A stretch of DNA of 55,016 nucleotides from Defluviitaleaceae bacterium (GTDB lineage: Bacteria; Bacillota_I; Bacilli_A; MOL361; Turicibacteraceae): the NCBI GenBank assembly GCA_009778135.1, contig WRKJ01000105.1:1-55016 (forward strand), read 5' to 3'. Shown piece after piece: positions 5,028 through 39,995 of the stretch. The position numbers and the translations under genes were made by a program. Positions within the stretch are counted from its first letter, which is position 1. The number at the start of each line of letters is the position of its first letter. The notes beneath the pieces were generated by a model that searched no databases, had not been told where the DNA came from, and saw only the letters and a program-made list of their open reading frames with translations.

Positions 5028-5100
5028 TTTAAACAACCTCTCTTGCTACACTAACATCTATTCAACAACAACTGCGATTCCAGTCCTTTTAAGCAATGCC

Positions 5101-11540: not shown

Positions 11541-11577
11541 TTTTCTAAAAAAGAAAAGAAGCAATACACATTGCTTC
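11541..11577 (-). terminator. Terminator of the aromatic operon, overlapping the aroQ stop codon
   Basis: On the minus strand GAAGCAAT-GTGT-ATTGCTTC (11577-11558) is a perfect 8-bp stem with a tetraloop followed by TTTTCTTTTTT. The 5' arm includes the aroQ stop codon (11578-11576), so the last ribosome could delay folding. Confidence 0.85.
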
Positions 11578-12019
11578 AATCAATCATCATCGCCAGCTCA
11601 TCTTTCAAGTAAAGAATCGCTTCTTGATAACCTTCGATTCCTTTTCCCATAATGGTATGTTGACAAGCCATCCCTGCATATGATCGTTGACGAAATGTTT
11701 CTCGTTCATGTATGTTGGATAAATGAACTTCAACTGCTGGTAAACCAACCGCTTTTAACGCATCCAAGATGGCAATGCTCGTGTGGGTGTAAGCTGCCGG
11801 GTTAATGATAATGCCATCATAAACATCGTAAGCAGCTTGTATGACATCGACCAAAGCACCTTCATGATTGGATTGAAAAATGTGATACTCAATTTGATGC
11901 GTCTTACAAGTCGTTTTTACAAGATTTTTCAAATCTTCGTAAGTTGCATGACCATAAATAGCTGGCTCACGCATGCCGAGCATATTTAAATTAGGCCCAT
12001 TAACGATCAATAATTTCAT
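11576..12019 (-). CDS. aroQ: 3-Dehydroquinate dehydratase, type II
   Basis: Dehydrates 3-dehydroquinate to 3-dehydroshikimate, third step of the shikimate pathway. At 147 residues it matches the dodecameric type II class. Motifs: NGPNLNMLGMREPAIYG (residues 7-23, catalytic Arg and Tyr), NHEG, INPAAYTHTSIAI, and VEVHLSNIHERE with the catalytic His. The start is ATG 12019, preceded by GGAGG at 6 nt; the open frame continues upstream only because it overlaps aroE-aroK. The last 20 nt of the fused gene overlap this start, so translation is probably coupled. It is the last gene of the operon. Confidence 0.96.
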   Translation of the reverse strand: MKLLIVNGPNLNMLGMREPAIYGHATYEDLKNLVKTTCKTHQIEYHIFQSNHEGALVDVIQAAYDVYDGIIINPAAYTHTSIAILDALKAVGLPAVEVHLSNIHERETFRQRSYAGMACQHTIMGKGIEGYQEAILYLKDELAMMID

Positions 12020-13235
12020 AAAAAGCCTCCAACACTTTTTTGGCCACGACATCAACCTGATCATCATTCACAACCGTCTGATCAGCAAACTGCTGGTACA
12101 AAGGCGAACGCACTTCATACATGCTTGCCAGGTCTCCCATAGAAAGCGGGCGATTTGTCCGGTCCAGTGCTTCCAGTTGACGTTCTAAAAATAAAATAAC
12201 GCCATTTTGATGCAGGGATGCTTCATTTTCAAGACGTGTGACACAACCACCACCTGTTGTCACAATAACGCCTGATAAAGCACCCACTTGTTTGATCACA
12301 TCAGATTCATAGGTTCTAAAACTGGATTCCCCTTCTTCTTTGAAAATGTCGGGGATGGATTTTCCTGTTCGTTTTTCAATTTCGTGATCTGTATCAACGA
12401 CTTTTCGACCTGTCAATTCAGCTAGTGCAAGTCCGACGGTCGTTTTTCCAGAACCAGGCATTCCGATCAAAATGATGTTTTGTGTTTCTTTTTGAATACT
12501 TGCTACAATTTGATCGATTTTCTCATCGGAAATCCGTTGACCTATAAAAACTTCAGATGCTGCAGCTGCTTGTGCAACGAGCATCGGTAAACCACCTATA
12601 TGAGGAATCCCTCGTTTTTTAGCTTCTAAAAGCAAAGCCGTCTGATGCGGGTTATAGATTAAATCGACGACACCTTCTAAATTTTTAAAAGGGGACAAAG
12701 CGACAGGTGATGCCCCATTGTACGGATACATACCAACAGGCGTCGTGTTAATGATCACTTGACTATCCTCATGTTGATCCAAATTATCATAATGATTGAC
12801 ACCTTGACGCGACACAACAATGATCTCTTTTGCGCCTTCTTCTTTTAAAACATGACTTGCTGTTAACCGACTCCCACCACTGCCTAGCACAAGAACTTTT
12901 TTTTCTTTTACGTTGATATTCCCGATTTTCAACAGGTGTAAAAACCCTGCAGCATCGGTATTATCCCCATATAAACTGCCATCTTTCATGCGTTTAATGG
13001 TATTCACACTACCGATCGCACGGGCTGCTGGTGATAGCTGATCACAATAAGCAAGGCATGCTTGTTTGTAAGGGATCGTCACATTCAACCCATCAAAAGG
13101 GGTCGTTTCCATAAAATTCGCCAGTTTATCACGTTCAACTTCGAATAAGTCATATGTATAATCACCTAATGCTTTGTGAATCAAAGGTGAGTAACTATGG
13201 GTGAGTTTTTCACCGATTAGGCCATACTGCAACAT
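12000..13235 (-). CDS. aroE-aroK: Fused shikimate dehydrogenase - shikimate kinase
   Basis: One 411-residue frame encodes two consecutive pathway enzymes. Residues 1-250 are AroE (dehydroshikimate to shikimate, NADPH): SYSPLIHKAL (14-23), NVTIPYK with catalytic Lys57, GDNTDAAGF with Asp94, the nucleotide loop GSGGSRLTA (118-126) and GLPMLVAQAA. Residues 252-411 are AroK (shikimate to shikimate-3-phosphate, ATP): P-loop GMPGSGKT (258-265), DTD (281-283), FRTYE with Arg307, TTGGGCV (326-332) and TNRPL in the lid. All catalytic residues appear intact in both halves, so both activities are likely. The GSGGSR loop differs from the common GxGGxA. ATG overlaps the pheA stop by one base (TAATG). Confidence 0.95.
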   Translation of the reverse strand: MLQYGLIGEKLTHSYSPLIHKALGDYTYDLFEVERDKLANFMETTPFDGLNVTIPYKQACLAYCDQLSPAARAIGSVNTIKRMKDGSLYGDNTDAAGFLHLLKIGNINVKEKKVLVLGSGGSRLTASHVLKEEGAKEIIVVSRQGVNHYDNLDQHEDSQVIINTTPVGMYPYNGASPVALSPFKNLEGVVDLIYNPHQTALLLEAKKRGIPHIGGLPMLVAQAAAASEVFIGQRISDEKIDQIVASIQKETQNIILIGMPGSGKTTVGLALAELTGRKVVDTDHEIEKRTGKSIPDIFKEEGESSFRTYESDVIKQVGALSGVIVTTGGGCVTRLENEASLHQNGVILFLERQLEALDRTNRPLSMGDLASMYEVRSPLYQQFADQTVVNDDQVDVVAKKVLEAFYEIIDR

Positions 13236-14380
13236 TACACCACCTCGAGATAACTGCCTAAATATTTAAACTCTTGACAAATTTCATCTAAGCTGTCCAT
13301 TAAAATGGCGAACTCTTTTGAATAGATAGACGTTTCTAAGTCGAAGTAAAATTTAAATTGGAAATCTTTATCTGGCATCGGTCGACTTTCCAATTTTTGT
13401 AAATTGATGCCCAATGCATGAAATCTAGCAAGTACTTTATAAAGGGCACCTGGCTGATGCGGCAACACAGCCATAATACTGGTTTTATCTGCACCTGGAT
13501 AAATCTCTAAGTTTTTCGCCATACAAATAAACCTTGTATAATTATTACTTTGATCTTGAACATCTCGTTTTAAACAGTCGAGTCCATACCGTGCAACAGA
13601 GTGAGTGGAGCAAATGGCAGCTAAGTCGTTTCGTTCAGATGTTGCCACTAATTTGGCAGCCAAAGCGGTATTTTCGCAAGGTGTTATTTTAACTGCTGTT
13701 CCTATTTTTTCAATTAAAGCAGCACATTGAGCAAGTGCTTGCGGGTGAGAAATGATTTCTTTAATATCAGCTTGCTTGACGCCATTTTTCACTGCTAAAT
13801 TGTGATCAATTTTAAGACGCATGCTTTTTACGATTTTAAAATCGTGAACTTGTAACAAACGATATACGGCATTAACTGATCCAGCTGTCGAATTTTCTAA
13901 TGGCAAAACACCATATTCACAAAAGCCATTTTCAATGGCAGAAAAAACCCCTTCGAATGTGTTGAAATATTGCACATCTGGATGTTTAAAAAGCTTTTTA
14001 CTTGCAAGTCCAGAGTACGCACCTTCGATCCCTTGACAAGCAACAACGGGATTTTCTTTCAACATTTTAGGTGTCTGCTCAATGGCTTGTGTAATTTCAT
14101 GATAAAGAGGTGAATGATCCGTCTTATGTAAATGTTGATAATTACGACTGATTTCAAATAATGTATCGTACAATGGGTAAATATACGTGCTTAATTCATC
14201 AGGTAATTTTTTTGCAAGTGCCAACACTTTTGCTTCTTCACGACTTTTATCAAGTGTCGGAAAATGGTTGGCTTTTTTATAATCAGCAATTTGTGATACC
14301 ACATCCATCCGCTCTTTGAACAACGTGATTAATTCATGATCAATTCGATCAATGTCATCTCTTAATTTATCTAAACTCAT
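13235..14380 (-). CDS. pheA: Bifunctional chorismate mutase - prephenate dehydratase
   Basis: Converts chorismate to prephenate and on to phenylpyruvate, committing carbon to phenylalanine. The 381-residue protein has three parts: an AroQ-type chorismate mutase helix bundle (about 1-90, LRDDIDRIDHELITLFKER and later SREEAKV), a periplasmic-binding-like dehydratase (about 105-285, with GIEGAYSG, YFNTFEGVFSAIENG, LPLENSTAGSV, and NNYTRFICM containing the catalytic Thr), and a C-terminal ACT domain (about 295-375, HQPGALYKVLARF then INLQKLESRP) that should bind Phe for feedback inhibition. Such CM-PDT fusions are usual in proteobacteria and less so in Bacilli, where PheA often lacks the mutase. 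AAGGAG precedes the ATG. Confidence 0.96.
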   Translation of the reverse strand: MSLDKLRDDIDRIDHELITLFKERMDVVSQIADYKKANHFPTLDKSREEAKVLALAKKLPDELSTYIYPLYDTLFEISRNYQHLHKTDHSPLYHEITQAIEQTPKMLKENPVVACQGIEGAYSGLASKKLFKHPDVQYFNTFEGVFSAIENGFCEYGVLPLENSTAGSVNAVYRLLQVHDFKIVKSMRLKIDHNLAVKNGVKQADIKEIISHPQALAQCAALIEKIGTAVKITPCENTALAAKLVATSERNDLAAICSTHSVARYGLDCLKRDVQDQSNNYTRFICMAKNLEIYPGADKTSIMAVLPHQPGALYKVLARFHALGINLQKLESRPMPDKDFQFKFYFDLETSIYSKEFAILMDSLDEICQEFKYLGSYLEVV

Positions 14381-14408
14381 GTTCTAAACTCCTTCCCGTT
14401 GTGCATTT

Positions 14409-15497
14409 TCACAACTTCCCACTTTCTAACAACACATCTAAGATACAAATGGCAGCAACGGCTTCTACACAGGGTACTGCCCTTGGTACGATACATGGAT
14501 CATGTCGCCCATGAACTTCCAAGATCGCATGCGCTTGACGTGTTAGATCAACACTTTGTTGCGTTTGTGCAATAGAAGAGGTTGGCTTCACTGCAACTTT
14601 AAACAGCAACGGCATCCCTGTCGTCATGCCGCCAAGAATGCCACCATGATGATTGGTTATCGTTTTGACTTGATCACCTTCGTAATAATAGTCGTCATTA
14701 TGAACACTACCCGTCATCGTTGCCGCATCAAACCCCGCACCAAATTCGATTCCTTTGATCGCAGGAATGGCAAACATCAAAGCAGATAATCGATTTTCCA
14801 TCCCATCAAACATCGGTTCACCAAGTCCAACAGGTAAACCAATGATGGCACATTCAATGGTACCGCCTAACGAATCCAACTTTCTTCTTGCTTGATCCAC
14901 CGCTTCTTTCATCGCAACGCCTGCTTCATCATTAACGACGGGAAATTCTTTTTCACCAACCGTTAATAGGTGATCTTTCGCCACTTGAACAGGATCAAAC
15001 CTTTCATCACAAACATCTCCGATAGAAGCAATATGTGCACCGATATAAATGCCGTTCTTCGCAAGTATCTGCAATGCAATCCCACCTGCTATACAAAGCG
15101 GTGCGGTCAACCTTCCTGAGAAATGACCGCCACCAGCGACATCCTGATAACCCCCATGTTTCACATGGGCGGGAAAATCAGCATGACCAGGTCGTGGTAT
15201 TTTTTTGAGATTTTCATAATCTACTGAGCGAATATTTTGATTATGAATCACTGCCGTTAGCGGTGCACCACATGTTTGATTGTCAACAAGACCTGTTAAA
15301 AATTGCGGTATATCTGCTTCTTTTCTCGTGGTCGACCAAGGGTTTCGACCAGGTGCACGTCGATTTAAAAACTGTTGTAACACATCCATGTCAATGGGAA
15401 TGCCTGCAGGCAAACCATCTAACGTCATGCCAATGGCAGGTGCGTGAGATTGACCGAAAATGGATAAAGCTAATTTATTTTTCCAAACACTACTCAT
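14409..15497 (-). CDS. aroC: Chorismate synthase
   Basis: Makes chorismate from EPSP with reduced FMN. 362 residues. Signatures: [10 protein letters not shown] (residues 14-23), [24 protein letters not shown], the flavin loop [16 protein letters not shown], and [14 protein letters not shown] near the C-terminus with the HDPC Asp/His pair. GAAAGGA lies upstream of the ATG. It follows aroA after a 72-nt gap, the largest inside the operon, where no promoter or hairpin is obvious. It is monofunctional with respect to flavin reduction as far as sequence shows. Confidence 0.97.
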
Positions 15498-15569
15498 GGT
15501 TTTTTCCGTTCCTTTCTTCTGCGCAGCTTCCAGATGGACTTTTCAGTTGTTCATCAAACTGATTCGCCA

Positions 15570-16850
15570 TTAATCTAACACTTCTATTTTCAACGGCTTA
15601 CCCAGTTTCTCAAAATCTTCCCATAGCTTCGGATAAGACTTGTTCACCGCTTCGGCGCCTGTTAAAATGACAGGTTCTGTACAAGCAGTCGAAGCAGCAG
15701 CTGCAAGCATGGCGATCCGATGGTCAATATGGGCATCAACCCTTCCTCCTATTAAGTGAGGAACACCGTCAATAATCAAACCATCTTCAAGCTCTGTCAC
15801 TTTCGCACCGAGAGCATTCAACGTACTAGCAGTTGTCGCCAATCTATCTGATTCTTTGATTCGTAGTCGGCCTGCATTTTTAATCACACTTCTCCCTTTC
15901 GCAACTGACAAAATGGCAGCGATGACAGGGATCAAATCTGGAATCTCTCCTGCATCAATTTCAATCCCATGTCGCGTGCCTTCTTTAACAGTCACAGCAT
16001 GGTCATCCCAGCTGATACGTGCGCCAATTTGACGGATGATATCAGCCATGCGACGGTCGCCTTGTAAACTGTTGGGATTGATGCTTTTTAAAGTAATGTC
16101 ACCGCCTGGCATGGCACCACTTGCTAACCAAAAAGCACCATTGGACCAATCTCCATCAGTAAGTGCTTCGGATGGACTTGTTAAAGTAGCACCACCTTTC
16201 ACATGGTAAGTTGTTCCGATTTGTTCATGCGTCAAACCAAAGTCTTTTTGCACCCCTAATGTAATCGCAATATAGTCTCCTGATTGTAATGTTTCAGTAA
16301 TCTCTAAAGTGCTATTTGCTTCAAGTAAAGGCAGTGCCATGAGTAAGCCACTGATGTATTGAGAAGACACATTACCAGCGATGGCATAGGTTCCTGCTTC
16401 TAACTTACCTTCACAACGTAATGTCGCTTCCGTCGGTCGACTTAACGTGATGCCTTTACCCGTTAACACACCATCTAAAGGTGCGATGGGCCTTTCGGGC
16501 AAACGTCCTTCCATCTGAAACTCTCCCGTGACACCGAGTGCACAAACAACCGGCAGCATAAATCTAAACGTCGAACCACTTTCTTTACATGGAAGCACTG
16601 CTTTTTCCGGCAAGTTTTCTCGGTCTAAAGGTTGAACCAAAAAACCATCTGTTAATGTTTCAATTTTTGCGCCTAAGCTTTGCAAACAAGCAACCGTCGC
16701 CGCAATATCAACTGCACCTGTATGCTGACAATAAATGGTCGTTGCTTGATCAGCCAAGCTGGCACAAATGAGCAACCGATGCAAATGAGATTTTGACGGA
16801 ATGGCAAAAATATCTCCTTTGATCGGTCCTGGTTCCATTGTTACAATCAT
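15570..16850 (-). CDS. aroA: 3-Phosphoshikimate 1-carboxyvinyltransferase (EPSP synthase)
   Basis: Transfers enolpyruvyl from PEP to shikimate-3-phosphate. 426 residues in the two-lobed fold. Motifs: IPSKSHLHRLLI (S-K-S-x-x-x-R, about residues 17-28), CKESGSTFRFMLPV in place of the E. coli GNAGTAMR segment, LPERPIAPL, GNVSSQYISGLLMALP, GDWSNGAFWLASGA, RIKESDRL and DHRIAML. The SGSTFR form of the PEP-site loop is seen in clostridial-type enzymes; glyphosate response cannot be predicted from this. Its ATG overlaps the aroB stop by 4 nt. Confidence 0.96.
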   Translation of the reverse strand: MIVTMEPGPIKGDIFAIPSKSHLHRLLICASLADQATTIYCQHTGAVDIAATVACLQSLGAKIETLTDGFLVQPLDRENLPEKAVLPCKESGSTFRFMLPVVCALGVTGEFQMEGRLPERPIAPLDGVLTGKGITLSRPTEATLRCEGKLEAGTYAIAGNVSSQYISGLLMALPLLEANSTLEITETLQSGDYIAITLGVQKDFGLTHEQIGTTYHVKGGATLTSPSEALTDGDWSNGAFWLASGAMPGGDITLKSINPNSLQGDRRMADIIRQIGARISWDDHAVTVKEGTRHGIEIDAGEIPDLIPVIAAILSVAKGRSVIKNAGRLRIKESDRLATTASTLNALGAKVTELEDGLIIDGVPHLIGGRVDAHIDHRIAMLAAAASTACTEPVILTGAEAVNKSYPKLWEDFEKLGKPLKIEVLD

Positions 16851-17902
16851 ACATTCACTCCTTTTTTGATCCAGTGATAAAATTCTGCCATGCTGATGGT
16901 CGTTAGTTCACATTTTCCTACTGCACACGGTACAACATTCGTAAGTTGATCCCCTTCTCTTTTTTTGTCTCGCGTGGCACCTTCATAAATCGCTTCAGCG
17001 CTATAAGTTGTTGAAGACGGCAAGTTATATTTTTCTAACAAGCGACGTAATAATGCTAAACATTCAAGCGGACAATATCCGAGGGCAACCGCTGCACGGG
17101 TATCCATGACCATTCCAATGGCAACTGCTTTCCCATGACTCACTGTGTAGCCACTCACTTGTTCAATGGCGTGTCCGATGGTATGTCCAAAGTTAAGCAG
17201 TTTTCGGATACCTTTATCAAACTCGTCGGCACATACAATGTCGCTTTTCATTTTGACACAAGTCGCAACGACTTCATTGAGATCAAGTTGATCTTTAGCA
17301 AGTGTTTTTAACAACTCAGGATGACCGAGCATGCCATATTTAATGATTTCACTGTAACCGTCGTTTAAAATGTCAACTGGTAATGTTTCAAGTAAGGCAG
17401 TATCGCATAAAACGAGCACTGGCTGATAAAAAGCACCCACTAAATTTTTGCCAACTGGTAAATCAATGGCTGTTTTCCCACCTACTGACGAATCAACCAT
17501 GGCAAGCAAGCTGGTTGGGATTTGCACATAAGAAATCCCTCGTAAGTATGTTGCAGCCACAAATCCTGCTAAATCACCAACTACACCACCACCTAAAGCC
17601 ACGATGGCATCTGTCCCAGTCAATGCTGCTTCAGCTAACCCATTTTGCAACTTGATGTAAGTGTCACTATTTTTAGAAGCTTCACCCGGTCGAATGGATA
17701 GATCAACAACTTCTAACCCAACTGTTAAAAGATGCTGTTTCACCACAGCTAAGTATAAAGTTTTCACATTGTCATCGGTTATAATGGCAATTTTTTTTGC
17801 TTGAGGAACGAGTTGCTGCAATCGATTCCCAATCTGAGAAAGGATTCCCGTTCCGATGACCACCTCATAAGGCTTACTAACAGGCACATCAATGGTGATC
17901 AT
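16847..17902 (-). CDS. aroB: 3-Dehydroquinate synthase
   Basis: Cyclises DAHP to 3-dehydroquinate using NAD and a divalent metal. 351 residues. Motifs: RPGEASKN (about 72-79), GGGVVGDLAGFVAATYLRG, QIPTSLLAMVDSSVGGKTAID, KNLVGAFYQP, GYSEIIKYG and the metal ligands in NFGHTIGHAIE and HGKAVAIGM. Full length and intact. It overlaps the tyrA stop by 4 nt upstream and aroA by 4 nt downstream, so three successive genes are joined by ATGA-type junctions. Confidence 0.97.
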   Translation of the reverse strand: MITIDVPVSKPYEVVIGTGILSQIGNRLQQLVPQAKKIAIITDDNVKTLYLAVVKQHLLTVGLEVVDLSIRPGEASKNSDTYIKLQNGLAEAALTGTDAIVALGGGVVGDLAGFVAATYLRGISYVQIPTSLLAMVDSSVGGKTAIDLPVGKNLVGAFYQPVLVLCDTALLETLPVDILNDGYSEIIKYGMLGHPELLKTLAKDQLDLNEVVATCVKMKSDIVCADEFDKGIRKLLNFGHTIGHAIEQVSGYTVSHGKAVAIGMVMDTRAAVALGYCPLECLALLRRLLEKYNLPSSTTYSAEAIYEGATRDKKREGDQLTNVVPCAVGKCELTTISMAEFYHWIKKGVNV

Positions 17903-18735
17903 GGGCCGTCCACCTCTTTCTTACACTGACGTCCCGCATCAAGTAAAGCAATTAACTGTTGTTCATCATCTTGTTCAATCGCTTCCTTATACGCCGTTAT
18001 CGCAGCCATAAACGTCTCCATTTCCTGTAAAAGATACGCTTTGTTTTCTAAAAACAATTCCGCCCACATTTCAGGATTCAACCATGCCACACGGGTTAAA
18101 TCTTTGTAGCTTCCTGCCGAATAACCTTGATGTCTTTTAGCCGTTGGACTTTTAATAAATCCGTTAGAGATTAAATGTGGCATTTGTGAAGTGAACGCAA
18201 TCAATTCATCATGTTCTTTGGCAGTCGTATATGAGAAATGTCCAAATCCAATAGGTGCTAACACCGCTTTAACCCGTTCTAATAAACGAATGTCATCAAA
18301 AGTGGGTGGCACAATGACCATCGGTGCCCCATCAAACAAATCTTCTACGCTATATTTAAATCCGGATTGATGCGTACCAGCCATGGGATGACCGCCGACA
18401 AAATGAAACCCATGTTCTTTGGCAATGGGAAATAATGTCTCACAAATCGTTGCTTTCGTTCCAGAGCAATCAATGACCAACATCTCTTGAGGTAGCTGCT
18501 TTGCATGTGCTTTAACCCATTCCACGACACCGACTGGGTAAGTGGCTAACAGGATGACATCACAGCTGACCATATTTTCAACAGTCAACGCGTCGTCAAT
18601 GGCTTCGGCCATCTGTGCAAATGCCGTAATCGAAGCATCTTGGTCAACCCCTAAAACGGTCACACCTTCTCGACGTTTATAGGCTTTCGCCAAAGAGCCA
18701 CCAATTAATCCTAAACCGACTATTCCGATTCTCAT
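17899..18735 (-). CDS. tyrA: Prephenate dehydrogenase
   Basis: Oxidatively decarboxylates prephenate to 4-hydroxyphenylpyruvate, committing carbon to tyrosine. 278 residues: Rossmann motif [13 protein letters not shown] (residues 7-19), then [22 protein letters not shown] with the catalytic His, and a helical dimerisation domain ([15 protein letters not shown] near 225). There is no C-terminal ACT domain, unlike B. subtilis TyrA, so Tyr feedback is either absent or acts through the catalytic domain. Overlaps aroF by 4 nt and aroB by 4 nt. Confidence 0.94.
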
Positions 18736-19739
18736 TGTGTAATTACCTCTCTAATTTGTCTAATTTGTCCCGCTAATGTATGGAACTCTTCTGGTGTTAA
18801 ACATTGTGGTCCATCACTTAACGCATTGGCTGGATCATTATGAACTTCAATCATCAACCCATCAGCACCCGCAGCAGCGGCAGCTAATGCCATCGACGGT
18901 ACCAAATCAGCTTTTCCTGTTCCATGACTCGGATCAACCACAATCGGTAAATGCGTTAACTTTCTTAAAACAGGCACAGCTGATAAATCCAACGTATTTC
19001 TTGTATAATCTGATTCATAAGTTCGGATTCCCCGCTCACATAAAATGACATTTTCATTCCCATTCGCCATGATATATTCAGCACTCATCAACAATTCTTT
19101 AATCGTACCAGCTAAACCACGTTTTAGAAGAACAGGTGTCTTCGTTTTGCCAATTTCTTTTAATAAATCGTAGTTTTGCGTATTTCTTGCACCGACTTGA
19201 ATACAATCGATATCTTCAAACAAATGAATCTGTTTCGCATCCATTAACTCTGTCACAATCGGCAAACCTGTTGCTTTTCTGGCTTCTTTTAACAACTCAA
19301 GTCCTTCGTCTTTTAACCCTTGGAAATCATAAGGAGATGTTCTCGGTTTGAAAGCACCGCCACGTAATAGACCCACACCTGCTTCTTTAATCTTTTGAGC
19401 AATATAAGTGATTTGTTCACGGCTTTCTACCGAACAAGGCCCTGCCATAATATCAAAGTTGCCACCTCCGATTTTAACACCACCAATGCTGATGATACTA
19501 TCTTCCGGATGCATCTTTCGATTGGCTGCTTTAAACGGATCCGACATTTGAGAAGCAGTCTCTACAATGTCTAAACTTTGTAACATTTCTAAATCTAATG
19601 TGGCTGTCTTTCCGATAATCCCTAAAACCAACTGATCTTCTCCGTGAAACTGTCGGACAATAAATTCTTTTTCTTGTAACCATGTTACTAAATGCTCTAT
19701 TTTTTCTTTCGGTGAATTTCTTTTAATCATAATAACCAT
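18732..19739 (-). CDS. aroF: 3-Deoxy-7-phosphoheptulonate (DAHP) synthase, type I-beta with N-terminal regulatory domain
   Basis: First enzyme of the shikimate pathway: PEP plus erythrose-4-phosphate to DAHP. 335 residues. Residues 1-68 form a ferredoxin-like, ACT-like domain as in the Thermotoga maritima enzyme, where it carries Tyr/Phe feedback inhibition. The barrel follows: AGPCSVES (metal Cys102), [13 protein letters not shown] (Lys131), [28 protein letters not shown] (His272) and EVHNDP (Glu298, Asp302). AGGAGG lies 8 nt before ATG 19739. It is the first structural gene behind the leader peptide and attenuator, so its expression should be set by the leader. Confidence 0.97.
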
Positions 19740-19824: not shown

Positions 19825-19862
19825 AAAAAAACCGAGTAGCCTTTTTCCAAAGGTCTACTCGG
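19825..19862 (-). terminator. Attenuator terminator of the aromatic operon
   Basis: In the RNA sense CCGAGTAG...CTACTCGG (19862-19855 and 19839-19832) forms an 8-bp outer stem with an inner CCTTT/AAAGG stem, then seven U (19831-19825). It lies 85 nt before the aroF start and 30 nt beyond the leader-peptide stop codon, so unless prevented it would stop transcription before aroF. Confidence 0.88.
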
Positions 19863-19872
19863 CTGTCGTTCA

Positions 19873-19908
19873 TTCCGATTACCGAACTCCTTTATTCGGG
19901 TAATGGAA
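19873..19908 (-). promoter_or_regulatory. Second hairpin in the aro leader, overlapping the end of the leader peptide
   Basis: In the RNA sense TTCCATTACCCGAA and TTCGGTAATCGGAA form a long stem with two single-base bulges (19908-19895 and 19886-19873). The leader-peptide stop codon is in its loop. Separately, AACCGAGTA at the very start of the leader peptide (19987-19979) is perfectly complementary to TACTCGGTT of the terminator 3' arm (19838-19830). These are the elements expected of mutually exclusive folds controlled by ribosome position. Confidence 0.65.
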
Positions 19909-19990
19909 AGAAACAGTGGCCAAGAGACCCTGTTTGAAAATACCCGTAAAAATAAAATCGGTTCGTTTCAGTTAAACTTACTCGGTTCAT
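19892..19990 (-). CDS. Phe/Tyr-rich leader peptide of the aromatic operon
   Basis: A 32-codon ORF too short for usual gene callers. It begins ATG AAC CGA GTA and ends CCC GAA TAA. Codons 12-18 read F-Y-F-Y-G-Y-F and codons 27-28 F-F: five Phe and three Tyr in total concentrated where a ribosome would stall, plus one Cys and one His nearby. AAAGGA lies 8 nt before the ATG, and a near-consensus promoter is 31 nt further upstream (20021-20048). A terminator with a U-tract follows, then aroF. This is the arrangement of ribosome-mediated attenuation (as in pheL or trpL of enterobacteria). No T-box consensus is present. The role is inferred; translation of the peptide is not shown by sequence alone. 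Confidence 0.85.
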   Translation of the reverse strand: MNRVSLTETNRFYFYGYFQTGSLGHCFFPLPE

Positions 19991-20020
19991 CTTGACCATC
20001 CTTTTGCCTGTTTTTTATAT

Positions 20021-20048
20021 AGTATACACGAATTAATTTAAAAGTCAA
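20021..20048 (-). promoter_or_regulatory. Promoter of the aromatic operon
   Basis: On the minus strand: TTGACT (20048-20043), a 16-nt AT-rich spacer and TATACT (20026-20021). Predicted transcription start is near 20013, about 23 nt before the leader-peptide ATG. Confidence 0.85.
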
Positions 20049-20051
20049 TAC

Positions 20052-20075
20052 TTTTTCAAATTATTTTTCAAATTA
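20052..20075 (-). repeat. Tandem 12-bp repeat just upstream of the aro -35 box
   Basis: TAATTTGAAAAA occurs twice head to tail (20075-20064 and 20063-20052 on the minus strand); the first copy contains the uvrB stop codon. It ends 3 nt before the -35 box. It may be an AT-rich UP element or a double protein-binding site. Confidence 0.6.
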
Positions 20076-22040
20076 CTGCCCTTTCAACTCGATCATGACA
20101 TCCCGCAAGCTAGCTGCTGTTTCAAAGTCAAGGGCTTTAGCTGCATCACGCATTTCAGTTTCTAATCTAGCAATGAGCTGTTCTTTTTCAGATTTGGTCA
20201 TTTTCTTCGTCGACATTTTCGCATCAGCCTGCGTCGCTTCGGTGGCTCTAATGGCTGCTCGGATTTCTTTTTTAATCGTCTGTGGCACAATCCCATGCGC
20301 TTCGTTAAACGCCAGTTGAATCTCTCGACGACGTTCTGTTTCTTCAATGGCTTTAGACATCGAGTTGGTCATCTTATCTGCATATAAAATAACCCGACCT
20401 TCTGCGTTACGTGCTGCTCGCCCGATCGTTTGAATCAAAGAACGCTCACTACGTAAAAAACCTTCTTTATCAGCATCCAAAATGGCAACCAAAGAGACTT
20501 CTGGAATGTCAAGCCCCTCACGAAGGAGGTTAATCCCAACCAAAACGTCGTAAACACCTGCACGTAAGTCACGGATGATTTCAATCCGTTCTAGCGTTTT
20601 AATTTCTGAATGTAAATACGCGACTTTAATCCCTAAATCTTTCAGATAATTGGTTAATTCTTCTGACATTTTGATCGTAAGGGTCGTGATAAGGATTCTT
20701 TCATCTTTTTCAATGCGCTCGTGAATTTCTCCAAGTAAATGATCAATTTGACCTTCACTTTTATGAATTTCAATGAGGGGATCAACCAAGCCTGTCGGTC
20801 TGATAATTTGTTGAATCACATGCGGCGTGCGTTCTAATTCATAATCACCAGGTGTTGCTGAGACGTAAATGGCTTGATCTAGCTTGTCTTCAAATTCTTC
20901 AAAGCGAAGCGGACGATTGTCTAAAGCAGACGGCAGTCTGAAGCCATGATTCACCAGCGTTTCTTTTCTTGCGCGGTCACCATTGTACATCCCGCGAACT
21001 TGTGGCAACATGACATGTGACTCATCAGCAACAAGTAGCCAGTCATCTTGAAAAAAGTCCAGCAAGCAATAAGGCGTCGATCCTGATTCTCTTAAAGATA
21101 AAGGACCTGAATAATTTTCGACCCCTGAACAAAAGCCCATTTCCATTAACATTTCCAAATCATATCGCGTTCGTTGCTCAATGCGTTGGGCTTCGATCAA
21201 TTTTCCGTGCGCTTCAAAATGAGCCACTTGCGCTTCCATCTCTTTTTCAATGTTTTTCATCGCAATTTTAAGCCGTTCTTCACCTGTCACAAAGTGAGAA
21301 GCTGGAAAAATGACCACATGATTTCTTTCTCCAATAACAGCCCCTGTTACCGTATCAATTTCGCGAATGCGGTCAATTTCATCACCAAAAAACTCAATTC
21401 GGATCGCATTACGTTCCTGTCCAACCGGATAAACTTCAACCACATCACCGCGAACTCTAAATGTCCCTCGAGAAAAATCAATGTCATTTCGATCATACTG
21501 AATCCGAACCAATTCATTTAACAACCCGTTGCGCTCCAGCTCTTGTCCAACCCTTAATGAAACCATCATCCGTTTATATTCCTGAGGATCCCCGATCCCG
21601 TAAATACAAGAAACAGAAGCAACGACCACCACATCACGACGTTCTAAAATAGAAGCCGTTGCCGAGTGACGTAATTTATCAATTTCGTCATTCACTGCTG
21701 AATCTTTCTCAATAAACGTATCTGATGACGGCACATAAGCTTCTGGTTGGTAATAGTCATAATAACTCACAAAATACTCAACCGCGTTATTGGGGAAAAA
21801 CTCCTTTAATTCACTATAAAGCTGACCTGCCAATGTTTTATTATGCGCTAAAACCAAGGTCGGCTTCTGAACTTCCTGAATCACATTGGCGATCGTAAAG
21901 GTCTTTCCTGTCCCTGTTGCACCGAGTAAAACCTGTTCTTTCACACCTTTTTTTAAATGATGAGCCAATTGTTTAATGGCTTCGGGTTGATCCCCTGATG
22001 GTTCGTATGGACTGACTACTTGAAATTGTTGTTCCATCAT
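20073..22040 (-). CDS. uvrB: Excinuclease ABC subunit B
   Basis: UvrB is the DNA-bound helicase-like subunit of nucleotide excision repair, handed damaged DNA by UvrA and cut by UvrC. 655 residues, normal for Firmicutes. Motifs: Walker A GATGTGKT (40-47), the DNA-separating beta-hairpin [12 protein letters not shown], helicase motifs [26 protein letters not shown] and QTIGRAARN, and the C-terminal UVR domain ([20 protein letters not shown]) that binds UvrC. AGGAG precedes tandem ATGs at 22040 and 22037. uvrA is not in the window. Its 3' end carries the upstream part of the aro promoter region. Confidence 0.98.
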
Positions 22041-22073
22041 TTCATTCTCCTATCCTTCTTTCATTCATTTTTT

Positions 22074-23300
22074 TCACGCATCTAACGCCAGTACCTCTAT
22101 GAATTGCTCTGTTAATGAAATAAAGAATGGCTTCTTTTTAACCACTCGAACCATTTCTCTTTTCACCAACGCATCAATGGCTTTACTCACTTTATAAGCT
22201 GAAAGCTCCAGTACGTCTTCTAATTCTTTTTTTGAAAAACTTTCCCCTTCTAGCCCAAAAAGATAATGTTGCCCTAAAACCTCCAAAACTTCTTTTTCAT
22301 CAGCATGCAAATGCGCCATGCCCACTTCTACCACGGAAAAAAGTTTATTCAATTGATTTGTTTTTCTCAACAGTTCATCTAAAATATAGGTTTGTGCATC
22401 CAATAAAATTTTAAAAAACGACTGACAAAAATGAGTAAGTTCACCTTTATTCAAATGATGGCTTGCATCTTCAAAACCATCATAATAAAGTTTCTTATTC
22501 TGTTCGATCGCATAAGATAACGTTAATGCTGTTAAGATGTCCAACTCATTTTTCAAGTACAAACTACTGATGTAACGAGCAGTTCGACCGTTTCCATCAT
22601 AATAAGGATGTATGTAACCAAAATAGTAATGTGCAATGGCAATTCGGTAAAGCCCCGGTATGTCATGATCATTTAAAAGCATAATCAAGCGATGCAGTGC
22701 CGCTTTAATGGAAGACTCAGGTTCTATTCCTTTATGAAGCACCCTCTGGCTACCTGTCACAACTTCAACGCCAGTTTTTCTGAATAATTCACCATCCAAT
22801 TGATCTTCATCACTTACTTCATTCGCAACAAGTTCATCATAAATCTTCCTAATTTCATCAATCGTCTCTATTTTAGTCCATGTACGATTTTCTAATAAAT
22901 GTCGATAAGCATTAACAAAGCTTCGATATTTGATCTTCTTCTTTGAATGATTAGATTGAAGTGCCTTTCTCATTTCAGCTTTCGTACTTCTAATGCCTTC
23001 GATTTTATTCGTATTGACTAATTCATTAACCAACTTGGTGTGAACATAGTGACTCAGCGCCACGCCTGGTAAATCGATCATCATCTGCTCAATCATTCGA
23101 CTATTTTTGATTATTTTTTCATGATCCAACATCAAAGTCTGATGATTCACATAGAAACACTGGAATACTTCGTTAGATTTCAAAGGTTTTATCTGCAGCG
23201 CAATTTGCACAGCACCATAGTCATTCATTCGCTTTTCATATTCTTTGTGATAGTCACTTTCTGAATACTTATAATAAATCTTCGCTAGTTTTTCATACAT
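22074..23300 (-). CDS. Fic-domain protein with C-terminal winged helix
   Basis: Fic enzymes transfer AMP (or related groups) from nucleotides to target protein hydroxyls. Residues 231-242 are HPYYDGNGRTAR, a full active-site loop (HPFx[D/E]GNGRxxR). An upstream helix holds T97-N-K-I-E101-G, the inhibitory [S/T]xxxE[G/N] motif, placing it in the class with the inhibitory helix N-terminal in the same chain (class II), normally self-inhibited. The last 80 residues (GESFSKKELEDVLELSAYKVSKAI...) look like a winged helix, so DNA binding or autoregulation is possible. Start taken at ATG 23300 with AAAGGA 11 nt upstream; a TTG at 23309 overlaps the site. Target unknown. Neighbour of an AlbA_2 protein. 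Confidence 0.88.
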   Translation of the reverse strand: MYEKLAKIYYKYSESDYHKEYEKRMNDYGAVQIALQIKPLKSNEVFQCFYVNHQTLMLDHEKIIKNSRMIEQMMIDLPGVALSHYVHTKLVNELVNTNKIEGIRSTKAEMRKALQSNHSKKKIKYRSFVNAYRHLLENRTWTKIETIDEIRKIYDELVANEVSDEDQLDGELFRKTGVEVVTGSQRVLHKGIEPESSIKAALHRLIMLLNDHDIPGLYRIAIAHYYFGYIHPYYDGNGRTARYISSLYLKNELDILTALTLSYAIEQNKKLYYDGFEDASHHLNKGELTHFCQSFFKILLDAQTYILDELLRKTNQLNKLFSVVEVGMAHLHADEKEVLEVLGQHYLFGLEGESFSKKELEDVLELSAYKVSKAIDALVKREMVRVVKKKPFFISLTEQFIEVLALDA

Positions 23301-23358
23301 GAGATTCAATTTCCTTTTCTATAATCAAAAATAAGTACTTTTTTAAATTATGATAACC

Positions 23359-23398
23359 ATTATAGCACGGCATAATTAAAAAATAAAGATTTTTTAAT
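23359..23398 (-). promoter_or_regulatory. fic promoter overlapped by an AT-rich palindrome
   Basis: On the minus strand TATAAT lies at 23364-23359. The -35 region (about 23382-23387) sits inside a perfect 9-bp inverted repeat, ATTAAAAAA-TCTTTA-TTTTTTAAT (23398-23375), which could be a repressor site, for example for the winged helix of the Fic protein itself. Confidence 0.5.
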
Positions 23399-23434
23399 GA
23401 TAGAATACGAGAAATGAAGTGAGATCACAAGTTT

Positions 23435-24520
23435 TTAAACCATTTCATTCCGATTCGGAATACGGATTCTAAAAGAATTAGGACCCACATCAATTTGTGG
23501 CAACTGCTTAGATCCTTTATACAAATTAAAAATGCGTTTTATTCCTGTGCCATATGCTTCAATAATATTTAACCTGAGAAAAACTTCTGTCAATTTTTGA
23601 TTTCTCAACTGAGAAACACCTAAAAGAATATCTTCACGACTCATTCCCGGTAACAGTCCTCCAATCGAAATAAACTCAATAAATGCACGATTAATATTAA
23701 CGATAATACTACCACTATAACTGTAATCACGGTGCATCACCGCATTGATTAATGCTTCACGTAATGCTTCTTTCGGGTAATCCCAATAATCTTTACGCAC
23801 TAAGTCATCAATAACAGAACGCGTCTTATTGTTAAGCTGGATATATTTAAAAGCATCTTCTACTTGTTGCAAAAGCGAACCAAAAAATTCTTGTCGATCT
23901 TTAAATATCGTATTTTCAACATCATCAAAGACTGCAATTTTGATGGTGTGCTGACATTGATCTGCAAATAGTAACCCAAGATTGGTATACAGCCCAGAAT
24001 TGTGATTCTTAATGCCAAGAATATTAAATTTTTCTTGGTCGAAAGCGAGTTCATGCTTTTTAAAAATCCTTTCACACTGCTCAAAACTTAAATCTTGATT
24101 TAATGAACGTAAAGATTCAAACGTATCACCGTCACTTTCTTTAATCAACTGCCTAATTTGCTCAAATGAAGCTTGTACAGAAGATGTCCCTTGGCGAACA
24201 TAAACACCGGATGGCTTTAATCCTTTTGCTTTTAAGTAATAAGGCTTATTCTGACCTTCAGCTACATCAATTTGAATCGTATGATTTTCCTCTAATTGGT
24301 AGGTTGTAAACATCGTAACATCAGGTGCAATGGTATCACGAATCCCATTGGTTACACGCGTATACACATCATCAACATTGACTAAAGGGGTTAATTCTCC
24401 TCGGTCATTTATACCAATCAACAGCCTCCCGCCATCTGTATTGGCAAATGCAATGATCTCTTTGTAAATTTCATTTGTTGCAATTTCTTTAAACTCTAAT
24501 TTTTCTGTTTCAACGAGCAT
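23435..24520 (-). CDS. AlbA_2 (Schlafen-type) domain protein, ATP-binding transcriptional regulator-like
   Basis: The N-terminal 130 residues form an AlbA_2 domain: EFKEIATNEIYKEIIAFANTDGG, then LLIGINDRGE and PSGVYVRQGTSSVQAS. A second part (about 240-350) has LREALINAVMHRDYS and GIIEAYGTGIKRIF-type text, the GHKL-like block common in these proteins. The usual C-terminal winged helix is missing: the protein ends soon after NSFRIRIPNRN, and the downstream DNA shows no continuing frame. Members are annotated as ATP-binding or helicase-related regulators and often occur in defence or accessory regions; actual function is uncertain. Start at ATG 24520, with GGAGG 9 nt upstream; length 361. Confidence 0.8.
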   Translation of the reverse strand: MLVETEKLEFKEIATNEIYKEIIAFANTDGGRLLIGINDRGELTPLVNVDDVYTRVTNGIRDTIAPDVTMFTTYQLEENHTIQIDVAEGQNKPYYLKAKGLKPSGVYVRQGTSSVQASFEQIRQLIKESDGDTFESLRSLNQDLSFEQCERIFKKHELAFDQEKFNILGIKNHNSGLYTNLGLLFADQCQHTIKIAVFDDVENTIFKDRQEFFGSLLQQVEDAFKYIQLNNKTRSVIDDLVRKDYWDYPKEALREALINAVMHRDYSYSGSIIVNINRAFIEFISIGGLLPGMSREDILLGVSQLRNQKLTEVFLRLNIIEAYGTGIKRIFNLYKGSKQLPQIDVGPNSFRIRIPNRNEMV

Positions 24521-24598
24521 CTCTACAGTCCTCCAACTATTCAAGTTTAATGATACATTGAAATCCAGCTTTTACAACCGCAAAAGCTGGATAAATCA

Positions 24599-25855
24599 TT
24601 AGCCATATACCCAATAAATGGTTATTTTGTTCAAGTTCTCTTTATAAAGAAAATAATAGCGAACACTTTCCAAATCATACCATTCAGCTAAATTTCTAGC
24701 TGCTTGTGGCGCCAAATCTTCTAAAATAGCTGTTCGCATGCTTTCAAATAACTCAGGTGTTGAAAATTTAAAAGCAATCCAATCGTCTCCATTTAAAATA
24801 CTGGTGTTCATCGCATCCAACGCACGTTCTGGCTCATGTGTTTCATAAAACATCCCCTTCATCACAAAAAAGTTATGTGCCAAAGACGTTGCAGGTGGTA
24901 AAGTAATCCCTTCATCTAAGGTATGTGTGCGAAAAATGAGTTCATCATTTAACAGCAAATAATCGTAAACAACGTCGATACGATCTGCTAATGTGCTCCC
25001 TTCTAAAAATCCAGGACTTCCCCATGTCACATCTAAATGGTAATAGACGCCATAAATTCGGACAAGGTTCCATGCATGCGCAATCGGCTCTGTAGAAGTG
25101 CCTGGCACATAAGCGTCACCGACGACATAAGTTGCAAAAATACCAAGTCGCTCCAACAACAACTGCGCCGCTTTTGAAATGCCCGCACAAACTGATTCTC
25201 GGTTAACAAAAACACTATAAATGTTTTGGTGATCAGGCGCATCCAAATCATAGACAGTCGTCCTAATTAAATATTCATAGACCACGCGCACCAATTCATA
25301 TTCAGAAAGACCTGGTTCGACACTGGTAAGAAAGGCATCAACAGCAGCATCTATTTCAGCTTGCATGGTGATTCTAGCTTCAGCTGTGTGTCCAAACTCA
25401 GGTTCAAAGCTGGCATAAACACGTCCATCTGACCAACGTGAAACAGTTGTTCTCCCAGCCCCTGTTACCCAGAAAAATTCAGGATAATCAAAGAGTACCC
25501 ATCGATAGAGTCGATGGATTTTTTCGATATCATCTGTTTCAAGTTGAATTTCTTCATCACCACGCCACACACCATCTCGCAAGGCACGATAAATAACCCG
25601 CTCTTCCTCATCAAGCTGATGATAAAAGAACTTCTCAAAAGCACCGATAAAATAAGGCAGCTCTTCTGTTAACGCATCCACCTCTTCTTCATAAGTGGCT
25701 TCGTACGTCACCTCATCTACCACTGGAACTGTTGCTTTTGAGACCGCTTCATCAGAAGCTGGTCGTCTCGCTACCACTTCAGCAGGAACGCCACACCCCC
25801 ATAGCAAAATGAACACACTTATCAATAGGGTTAAAACAACTATTTTTTTCGACAT
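24599..25855 (-). CDS. Lipoprotein with transglutaminase-like (cysteine protease fold) domain
   Basis: A 418-residue surface lipoprotein. The signal ends in a lipobox, LLWGC, with Cys21 as the lipid attachment site. An acidic linker follows to about residue 65. The transglutaminase-like core is at about 185-290, with the triad Cys223 (ESVCAGISKAAQLLLERLGI), His260 (IAHAWNLV) and Asp275 (YHLDVTWG). All three are present, so it may be an active peptidase, amidase or crosslinking enzyme outside the membrane. Similar Firmicute proteins are linked to cell-wall or protein processing, but no substrate is established. It lies downstream of the ABC exporter gene with a hairpin between them; they could share a transcript. 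Confidence 0.85.
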   Translation of the reverse strand: MSKKIVVLTLLISVFILLWGCGVPAEVVARRPASDEAVSKATVPVVDEVTYEATYEEEVDALTEELPYFIGAFEKFFYHQLDEEERVIYRALRDGVWRGDEEIQLETDDIEKIHRLYRWVLFDYPEFFWVTGAGRTTVSRWSDGRVYASFEPEFGHTAEARITMQAEIDAAVDAFLTSVEPGLSEYELVRVVYEYLIRTTVYDLDAPDHQNIYSVFVNRESVCAGISKAAQLLLERLGIFATYVVGDAYVPGTSTEPIAHAWNLVRIYGVYYHLDVTWGSPGFLEGSTLADRIDVVYDYLLLNDELIFRTHTLDEGITLPPATSLAHNFFVMKGMFYETHEPERALDAMNTSILNGDDWIAFKFSTPELFESMRTAILEDLAPQAARNLAEWYDLESVRYYFLYKENLNKITIYWVYG

Positions 25856-25880
25856 TCTATCTCATCCCATCTTTTATGTC

Positions 25881-25904
25881 TAGTGCTGCAAGAGTGCAGC
25901 ACTA
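25881..25904. repeat. Perfect 10-bp inverted repeat with tetraloop
   Basis: TAGTGCTGCA-AGAG-TGCAGCACTA lies between the exporter stop codon and the lipoprotein start. There is no U-tract on either strand, so it is not a typical terminator. It may be an RNA-processing or stabilising hairpin, or a protein-binding site. Confidence 0.55.
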
Positions 25905-25911
25905 AGTATGA

Positions 25912-27627
25912 CTACGATTCATTTCCATGCCACAATTTCGCATAATAGCCACCTGATGCAATGAGGTCATCATGCTCGCCCCGTTCTGCAATCCCTTCTT
26001 TTCCTAAGACAATAATTTCATCTGCATTTTTAACTGTCGATAAGCGATGCGCAATGGTAATCACCGTCTTTCCAACTGATAATTCATCCAAAGATTTTTG
26101 AATTAACTGCTCTGTTAAATTATCAAGGGCTGATGTGGCTTCATCTAAAATGAGGATTTTCGGATTTTTTAAAAACACCCGTGCGATGGCAATTCTTTGT
26201 TTTTGTCCGCCTGAAAGCTTGATCCCCCGCTCTCCAACTTCTGTCTGATAGCCCGCTTCTAAACCGATAATAAAGTCATGGATGTTCGCTTTTTTCGCAG
26301 CAGCTTGAACTTCATCGTCGCTGGCATCCATGCGACCATACCGAATATTTTCAATAATGGTGTCATAAAACAGATAGACATCTTGTGAAACATGACCAAT
26401 TGCATGCCTGAGGGTTGACAATTCATATTCTCTAATGTCAATACCGTCAACTTTAATGCTCCCTGCATTCACATCGTAATATCTGGGAACCAATTGAGAG
26501 AGGGTTGATTTCCCAACGCCTGATTCTCCAACTAAAGCAATTTTTCTTCCAGCTGGAATGTTGAGGCTGAAATTGTTTAGAACATGGGTTGATTCACCTT
26601 GATAAGCAAAATTGACATTTTTGAATGCAATGTCTCCTTTTGGATCCGTTAGCTGTTTGGCATTTTCAGGAGATTTAATGTCCGGCTCAATATCCATCAC
26701 TTCACAGAAACGGCTAAATCCCGCTGCTGCTGATTGGGTCAATTCCATAAATTGCATGAGCCTTCTAATGGGTTGAATGAGGAAGTTTAAGTACAAGAAG
26801 AAGGCCATCATGTCTCCGATATTCATTTGTGAGTTAACAATTAATAAACCGCCTGTGATCAAAATCGCCACATTGGCTAAATCGATGAGGAAGTTGTTCG
26901 TACTGTGGAAAGTACCGACATACTTATAAAAATTAAACCATGAATCGTAGTATTTTTCGTTGTTGTAATCAAAGCGACGCAGTTCACGTTTCTCGTTCGC
27001 AAATGATTTCATTAACCGAATCCCACCTAAAGAATTGCCGAGCGCAGCTGTGATTTCTGCTTGTTCTTCTTTCAAGCGTTGATTCACACGTCGCATGGCT
27101 TTTCTCATCCAAAACATAAATCCGATAATGAGCAAGACGATGGGAATGGTCACCAACGTTAACGTTACGTTAATGAACATTAACAGCGTCGTTGTCCCAA
27201 TAAGCATCACGGTCGAAATAAAAATATCTTCTGGTAAATGATGCGCTGCTTCAGAAATGTCGCGCAGATCACCAACGATGCGACTCATCATTTTCGGTGT
27301 TTGATTTTCATCAAAATAAGTAAAATCCAAACTTTGAAACTTCGTAAAGAGGTCACGACGAATATCTCGTTCAATACGCGACCCCATAATATGACCCCAA
27401 AACAAAACAAAGTAGTTACAAAACAATCGAAGCCCAACAAGGACAACTAAAATCACGGTGAAGATCACCATGGCTTGCGTATTGTAATGAGGGATAAAAT
27501 CATTCATAAAAAGGCGTGTTACAAAAGGGAAAACCAAATCAACACCAGCTAAAATCGATGCACATAACATATCTGCAATGAACAACTTGCGATGTGGTTG
27601 ATAATAGGGGATGAAACGTTTAAGCAA
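25912..27627 (-). CDS. ABC exporter, fused permease and ATPase (multidrug/lipid type)
   Basis: A half-transporter that should work as a dimer to export lipids, drugs or peptides. Residues 1-300 carry about six membrane helices (type IV exporter fold); the ATPase domain follows with Walker A GESGVGKST (about 367-375), signature LSGGQKQRIAIAR, Walker B ILILDEATSALD and the switch His in TIAHRLS. Only one gene is present, so it is probably homodimeric; MsbA/YknU/LmrA-like. No peptidase domain, so not a bacteriocin-processing exporter. The start is ambiguous: TTG 27627 has AAAGG 10 nt upstream, and GTG 27636 is only 1-2 nt from that site; there is no ATG nearby. Confidence 0.88.
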   Translation of the reverse strand: MLKRFIPYYQPHRKLFIADMLCASILAGVDLVFPFVTRLFMNDFIPHYNTQAMVIFTVILVVLVGLRLFCNYFVLFWGHIMGSRIERDIRRDLFTKFQSLDFTYFDENQTPKMMSRIVGDLRDISEAAHHLPEDIFISTVMLIGTTTLLMFINVTLTLVTIPIVLLIIGFMFWMRKAMRRVNQRLKEEQAEITAALGNSLGGIRLMKSFANEKRELRRFDYNNEKYYDSWFNFYKYVGTFHSTNNFLIDLANVAILITGGLLIVNSQMNIGDMMAFFLYLNFLIQPIRRLMQFMELTQSAAAGFSRFCEVMDIEPDIKSPENAKQLTDPKGDIAFKNVNFAYQGESTHVLNNFSLNIPAGRKIALVGESGVGKSTLSQLVPRYYDVNAGSIKVDGIDIREYELSTLRHAIGHVSQDVYLFYDTIIENIRYGRMDASDDEVQAAAKKANIHDFIIGLEAGYQTEVGERGIKLSGGQKQRIAIARVFLKNPKILILDEATSALDNLTEQLIQKSLDELSVGKTVITIAHRLSTVKNADEIIVLGKEGIAERGEHDDLIASGGYYAKLWHGNES

Positions 27628-27727
27628 TACAAACACGACCTTTCTTCAACTGGCTAGTGCAGCAAAACGTAAGTAATAACGCAATGTCCTTCACTTTGAA
27701 ACTGCCTAGGAACATTATACTACAAAT

Positions 27728-27762
27728 CAAAAAAAAAAGCATCTTTTTTGAAGGATGCTTTT
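27728..27762. terminator. Terminator of the glycogen operon
   Basis: On the minus strand AAAGCATC (27761-27754) pairs with GATGCTTT (27743-27736), followed by ten U (27738-27728). It begins 14 nt after the pulA stop codon. A TATAAT for the exporter gene lies just downstream of it (GTAGTATAATG, about 27715). Confidence 0.88.
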
Positions 27763-27775
27763 GTGATTTTCCATG

Positions 27776-29914: not shown

Positions 29915-30001
29915 TCCATAACCTCGTTTACGATTAAATTTTGTTTTTAGACAGAAAAAACCAATAGAATGTGGATTCCATCAGTTTTTACGCCATGCGC
30001 A

Positions 30002-32413: not shown

Positions 32414-32418
32414 CAATT

Positions 32419-34899: not shown

Positions 34900-34934
34900 T
34901 TTAAGTCACCTCTATTCATTTAAATTTTCTTTAA

Positions 34935-36068: not shown

Positions 36069-36130
36069 GTATGAAGCCACCTTTCTTTTCTTTTTTGTCC
36101 ATCACCGACAACATGAATATCGTTAATCAA

Positions 36131-38086: not shown

Positions 38087-38112
38087 CCCATCATCACCGT
38101 ACCTTAAGTTTT

Positions 38113-39732: not shown

Positions 39733-39854
39733 AATTCTCCCACCTTTCACTTCATCGAATATTTCCGAAATCGTTGTTTGATCAGTTGAGCATCTCATGA
39801 CATAACTGTTTGCTATTGTTATTCATGATCGCAGCGTTTAACCTTTACTTGCTC

Positions 39855-39894
39855 CATAAGCGCTTATGTATACCCTTGATTGTTATTCATTATA
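39855..39894 (-). promoter_or_regulatory. Glycogen operon promoter with LacI-type palindromic operator
   Basis: On the minus strand an extended -10, TGTTATAAT (TATAAT at 39894-39889), is followed about 20 nt later by the perfect 14-bp palindrome CATAAGCGCTTATG (39868-39855). The central AAGCGCTT is the core of LacI-family operators (MalR, CcpA/cre); the outer bases differ from the strict cre consensus TGWAANCGNTNWCA. The position just downstream of +1 suits repression by blocking transcription. Confidence 0.75.
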
Positions 39895-39995
39895 ACAGAG
39901 TTTAACCGTCGTTACTAGAGTACATGAATTATTTTTTTATTTTTTTACAAAAAACTTGTCATTCATCTTCAATCATTGTCATTCATTCAGCTTTT

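Follow-up and report, generated by a model that had tools for sequence, protein, structure and literature searches.

The aromatic operon and its leader region

We analyzed a 55,016-nt stretch of DNA (hereafter, the window), which spans positions 1 to 55,016 of contig WRKJ01000105.1 from a Defluviitaleaceae bacterium. Downstream of a short leader, the minus strand carries genes in the order aroF-tyrA-aroB-aroA-aroC-pheA-aroEK-aroQ, which comprise a complete set for aromatic amino acid synthesis. The pheA product is a chorismate mutase-prephenate dehydratase, and the end products of the operon include Phe and Tyr. The leader region lies between aroF and uvrB, which is also on the minus strand and ends at 20073; the gap between the terminator and aroF is 91 nt. 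Upstream of uvrB, consecutive genes at 22074-24544 encode Fic-domain and Schlafen/AlbA_2-domain proteins. An initial annotation of this DNA had described a promoter, a ribosome site, a 32-codon ORF with clusters of Phe and Tyr codons, a hairpin and a terminator ahead of aroF, and our examination of the sequence and its folding located each of these features where it had been placed (Table 1). An alternative in-frame start of the leader ORF exists three codons upstream (MVKM...).

Table 1. Features of the leader region and operon, in window coordinates.
Feature	Position	Strand	Description
Promoter TTGACT-16-TATACT	20021-20048	-	10/12 consensus positions; consensus match only
Shine-Dalgarno AAAAGGA of leader ORF	19999-20005	-	Identified from sequence
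TGGTCAAGA, Shine-Dalgarno-to-start-codon stretch	19990-19998	-	MFE fold: without translation, base-paired to TCTCTTGGCCA, which hides strand 1
Leader ORF MNRVSLTETNRFYFYGYFQTGSLGHCFFPLPE	19892-19990	-	32 codons plus TAA; ATG at 19990, TAA to 19892
Control codons 12-18, F-Y-F-Y-G-Y-F	19937-19957	-	Translation of leader ORF
Second control pair, Phe27-Phe28	19907-19912	-	Translation of leader ORF
Anti-terminator strand 1, GGGTCTCTTGGC	19919-19930	-	Codons 21-24; pairs with terminator 5' arm
Central hairpin spanning leader stop codon	19863-19916	-	Arms 19916-19895 and 19886-19863; folding
Anti-terminator strand 2, AAAGGAGTTCGG	19882-19893	-	Available with ribosome stalled at codons 27-29
Intrinsic terminator	19825-19863	-	Arms 19863-19849 and 19844-19831, then T tract (seven T)
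aroF (DAHP synthase)	18732-19739	-	First structural gene; clostridial type
tyrA, aroB, aroA, aroC, pheA, aroE-aroK fusion, aroQ	11576-18735	-	Remaining operon genes

The 5' leader of the operon thus contains a short ORF with its own ribosome site, and this ORF is enriched in codons for the amino acids that the operon produces (6/7 Phe or Tyr in the control run). When the 300 bp preceding aroF were dinucleotide-shuffled 3000 times, 0.03% of the shuffles contained an ORF with at least six Phe/Tyr residues out of seven. The central hairpin (−17.6 kcal/mol) was equalled in 5 of 1000 shuffles, and the intrinsic terminator that lies between the leader ORF and the first gene (−20.5 kcal/mol) was equalled in none of 1000. 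Folding finds this terminator; a simple terminator scan misses it because of a one-base bulge. A search of the window with Rfam 15 returned no family at gathering score, the Phe leader included, and the T-box model (RF00230) had no match in the window.

Folding of the leader RNA at successive ribosome positions

We folded the window RNA ahead of the ribosome with the ribosome set at each codon, and compared the outcome to 500 shuffles. Results showed that strand 1 (GGGTCTCTTGGC) pairs with the 5' arm of the terminator (GCCGAGTAGACC) across the central hairpin. When the A site was at codons 12-18, the stability of this anti-terminator was reached by 10-44 of 500 shuffles (2-9%), which is only modestly significant for the window alone. 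With the A site at codon 20 the anti-terminator was gone (176/500 shuffles reached its stability). At codon 28 a different pairing formed through strand 2 (AAAGGAGTTCGG, 19893-19882; 9/500 shuffles), and with the ribosome at the stop codon the anti-terminator was lost (480/500). The two ranges of ribosome position that allow an anti-terminator coincide with the two aromatic clusters, codons 12-18 and 27-28. In silico, therefore, the leader has an anti-terminator that excludes the terminator, is freed by a stalled ribosome and is masked by a ribosome that finishes translation.

The anti-terminated form carried an energy penalty relative to the terminator of 7-10.5 kcal/mol at codons 12-18, about 14-18 kcal/mol at codons 20-26, 10.5 kcal/mol at codon 28 and 18 kcal/mol at the stop codon. 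Because the terminator was the more stable form at every ribosome position, by at least 7 kcal/mol in equilibrium folding, the predicted switch must be kinetic, and the anti-terminator can act only by forming first. Classical attenuators likewise work by forming the anti-terminator first. When no ribosome translates the leader, strand 1 is taken up by pairing with the segment that separates the ribosome site from the start codon, and folding favors the terminator. We considered the pairing of TGGTCAAGA with strand 1 as a general feature of such leaders; it was weak over 92 leaders (mean z −0.57) and we kept it as a property of the window only.

Leaders upstream of aroF in other Clostridia

Using the window's AroF as query, we obtained at least 590 matching stretches; 566 of those listed encode a relative, and we read the 80 best. 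We looked for ORFs 8-60 codons long in which five or more of seven consecutive residues are Phe or Tyr, at most 300 bp upstream of aroF, and found one in 63 of the 79 most similar clostridial aroF loci with enough upstream DNA. The controls gave 2.5% in shuffles and 1.3% on the reverse complement. Under the stricter threshold of at least six of seven, 45/79 loci were positive, vs. 0.19% in shuffles. We also drew 147 Clostridia genomes evenly, one per species, from the class that includes locus L012. F/Y-rich ORFs occurred in 44 of the 110 aroF matches read from this draw; these matches were mostly among the highest-ranked by similarity, some genomes contributed two, and a few were near-copies of each other or of members of the first set.

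A U-tailed terminator followed the F/Y run in 102 of 110 ORF-positive loci, vs. 7.6% of shuffles, in a search that took in ORF-positive loci only and is silent on terminators at loci lacking the ORF. Besides the window itself, this set took its members from the 79 loci, from the even draw and from class Bacilli (two loci, L088 and L090), with some near-copies among them; its size equals the number of matches in the draw by coincidence. The distance from F/Y run to terminator was mostly 60-100 nt, and is 76 nt in the window.

The anti-terminator was examined in 92 loci, from which the most obvious near-copies had been removed. With the ribosome stalled at the last F/Y codon, the terminator 5' arm gained a median of 8.75 kcal/mol from upstream pairing (shuffles, 4.4 kcal/mol), and this gain fell to 2.85 kcal/mol when the ribosome was placed eight codons further. 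In a swap test, strands paired with their own arms at a mean of −10.36 kcal/mol, as opposed to −8.18 ± 0.25 kcal/mol for permuted pairs (0/5000 permutations, which ignore relatedness among loci). The window's strand 1 paired better with its own arm than with 91/91 foreign arms, and the reverse also held. Among 14 loci with a GUAAUUUGUG-type strand, helix positions 2-6 changed on both sides while pairing was mostly kept, in a helix registered by eye to maximize pairing. At the level of sequence, the swap test shows that anti-terminator strand and terminator arm co-evolve. We concluded that the comparative sequence evidence is strong, and it is here that the strength of the case lies, as strand 1 is only modestly significant in the window.

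The comparison across relatives favors an anti-terminator other than the one named in the initial annotation. The annotation had paired the start of the leader (AACCGAGTA, 19987-19979) with the 3' arm of the terminator (TACTCGGTT, 19838-19830) as the alternative fold. This nine-base complement is present, but such pairing was not enriched over the 92 leaders (mean z −0.15). The core of the claim, a Phe/Tyr attenuator over a whole aromatic operon in a member of Bacillota, is well supported by the ORF, the terminator, the relatives and the co-variation, with strand 1 and the 5' arm as the pairing partners instead.

Two further kinds of leader were observed. A second class of clostridial aroF leaders is longer and has two aromatic clusters, with a pattern like FYFSxSFYFSxGYFxC (L145, L149, L156, L159, L167, L169, L174, L192, L194-L196 and L198), mostly with more distant AroF proteins. 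In class Bacilli (family f10), loci L088, L090 and L092 have Tyr-rich short ORFs upstream of aroF (MFLNTFAYYYYYQM, SYTYYYFR and DYYYSYSI, respectively).

The composition of the 92 leaders bears on which amino acids are sensed. At least two Phe and at least two Tyr residues were present in 84/92 leaders (fewer than two Tyr in six, fewer than two Phe in two), all four Phe/Tyr codons were in use, and Trp was rare. Predicted sensing of Phe and Tyr together is the rule among these leaders, and the novelty that the initial annotation saw in one leader sensing two amino acids was overstated. These counts make it rather unlikely that only one amino acid (e.g., Phe) is sensed while the codons of the other serve RNA structure, even though many relatives show TTT and TAC codons paired to the anti-terminator strand as well (mean z −1.1; 27/92 below −2), which indicates that codon choice is partly structural. 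We judged it quite improbable that, in the manner of TnaC, the nascent peptide itself arrests the ribosome and that the signal is a free aromatic compound rather than scarce charged tRNA. The leader peptide is indeed short and aromatic, and stalling peptides of such size are known, TnaC among them (PMC8429421); nevertheless, arrest peptides keep fixed residues, whereas residues outside the F/Y run vary widely among the relatives, and a biosynthetic operon should answer to shortage.

A terminator located downstream of uvrB and 91 nt ahead of aroF could also simply end uvrB transcription, with a chance F/Y ORF and a different promoter for aroF. The recurrence of the ORF-terminator order upstream of many clostridial aroF loci, the promoter-like site between uvrB and the terminator, and an ORF and anti-terminator far above shuffles render this highly improbable. 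T-boxes, TRAP and repressors are the regulators usually invoked for amino acid operons in Bacillota, and one clostridial aroF locus does have a T-box (L043:2629-2894, directly upstream of aroF, in an Oscillospiraceae genome without an F/Y leader), an example of another type of control for the same gene. We nonetheless gave almost no credence to a T-box or other known metabolite-sensing RNA in the window, where no Rfam family reached the cut-off and nothing relevant lay below it; T-boxes were absent from the whole genome.

The case rests on the sequence elements and their excess over shuffles, on the alternative pairings and their co-variation among relatives, and on AroF being of clostridial origin (see below). 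We consider it very probable that the leader works as a ribosome-mediated transcription attenuator of the classical kind, with Phe and Tyr as the amino acids sensed. RNA polymerase would start at the promoter (20048-20021) and a ribosome would follow on the leader ORF. When charged tRNA-Phe or tRNA-Tyr runs short, the ribosome would stall at codons 12-18, leaving codons 21-24 free to pair with the terminator 5' arm before the 3' arm is made; the terminator would then fail to form and transcription would continue into aroF-aroQ. A stall at Phe27-28 would free the second anti-terminator strand. When Phe and Tyr are plentiful, the ribosome would reach the stop codon and cover both strands, and the terminator would form. 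If the leader is not translated, its start would hide strand 1, such that termination is the predicted default.

Probable origin of the operon and comparison with known attenuators

A tree built from 104 AroF proteins nested the window's AroF with full support within a clade of Oscillospiraceae-type and Defluviitaleaceae proteins (L001-L006, L008, L009, L012) and apart from the DAHP synthases found in the host's family. In several members of this clade the leaders resemble each other in pattern (L001, QFFFGYYYFYF; L002, NFFFSYYFF; L012, FFFNCYYFFWF; the window, RFYFYGYF), and the gene order aroF-tyrA-aroB-aroA is shared as well. We found no leader at the nearest relatives in the tree, L005 and L009 (weak support, 93/30). 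The same operon order as in the window was found in clostridial relatives, and no close relative had the same operon. The flanking genes are of the host type: UvrB and AspRS match those of the other genus member at 89% and 76%, respectively, and those of other members of the host's family at 80-81% and 69-78%. The other genus member has different genes at the place after uvrB. Because a clostridial AroF stands among host-type flanking genes at a site occupied by other genes in the genus mate, the operon was most likely acquired by transfer. The leader likely arrived together with the operon; we word this less firmly because the leader RNA has diverged and the two nearest tree relatives lack a leader.

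The recipient lineage has an unusual complement of regulatory RNAs. No T-box was found in the window's genome or in its genus mate G001 at a threshold as lenient as E = 0.1 (the top hit scored 16 bits, E 0.23), whereas six other family members had 12-19 each, suggesting an apparent genus-wide loss. The GC content of sampled loci was 35-37% in most members of the host's family. The genes hisS-aspS are often T-box controlled in Bacillota; at window positions 3270-6369, which hold hisS-aspS, we found neither a T-box nor a His or Asp leader peptide. We rejected the idea that leader peptides replace T-boxes throughout the host: a scan of 590 upstream regions, taken from about 1.33 Mb of the genome with the window included, yielded one plausible case besides the aro leader. 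This second case (L288; contig 102, stretch 20001-40000, approximately 7490-7760, minus strand) is a short ORF, MLYIYQLIQGSGWAFWPPGAEGYEG, with two Trp codons, which precedes a gene for an amino acid transporter; an exact copy of GGTTGGGCGTTTTG occurs in a downstream hairpin that is followed by a U-tailed terminator. It is a possible second attenuator in the host genome.

The best known parallel is the pheL-pheA attenuator of enterobacteria, in which a Phe-rich leader peptide controls pheA. Both systems combine a leader peptide with a terminator and an anti-terminator in the control of aromatic synthesis; in contrast, pheL-pheA concerns Phe only and pheA only, and the window has no sequence or Rfam match to it.

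Precedents within Bacillota and at aroF itself mean that the initial annotation also overstated the novelty of the arrangement in this phylum. The Leu-rich attenuator peptide of Staphylococcus aureus ilv-leu provides genetic evidence for leader-peptide attenuation in Bacillota, although for branched-chain amino acids (PMC5794164). His-leader attenuators are predicted in the Bacillus cereus group, Peptostreptococcaceae and Erysipelotrichales; these likewise use a leader peptide instead of a T-box, and operon transfer with the attenuator has been proposed for them as well, but they respond to histidine (PMC2965389, PMC9413887). At aroF, the uORFC-13-1 motif (24 representatives, only from Acholeplasma and environmental sequences) has a promoter, a short ORF with Phe codon(s) and a terminator, and is predicted to act by attenuation (Brewer et al. 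2021, PMC8632094). Its description names at least one Phe residue and no Phe/Tyr run, which sets it apart from the window; the Tyr-rich ORFs of L088, L090 and L092 are perhaps of this Acholeplasma type. Two candidate F/Y-containing uORFs at shikimate genes appear in the legend of Fig. 6b of Stav et al. (2019, PMC6429828), a study of five genomes including C. novyi; the text accompanying that legend gives neither the species of these motifs nor an anti-terminator. We found no description of Phe/Tyr leaders across Clostridia in the open-access literature, and the family behind the window's attenuator is apparently under-described.

We see about an even chance that the following picture holds as a whole: that an attenuator for Phe and Tyr, so far mostly undescribed, is one of the main controls on DAHP-synthase operons in much of Clostridia; that it moved with its operon, as a self-contained module, into a lineage that has lost all its T-boxes; and that the window's version, with two stall sites that each free their own anti-terminator, may respond in a graded way. 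Upstream of aroF, leader peptides rich in Phe and Tyr are a common feature in Clostridia, and none of those checked fits an Rfam family. The leader would be a self-contained regulatory part that is easily testable, and an aro operon so equipped would be transferable to a genome without T-boxes, a case of operons carrying their own control across lineages.
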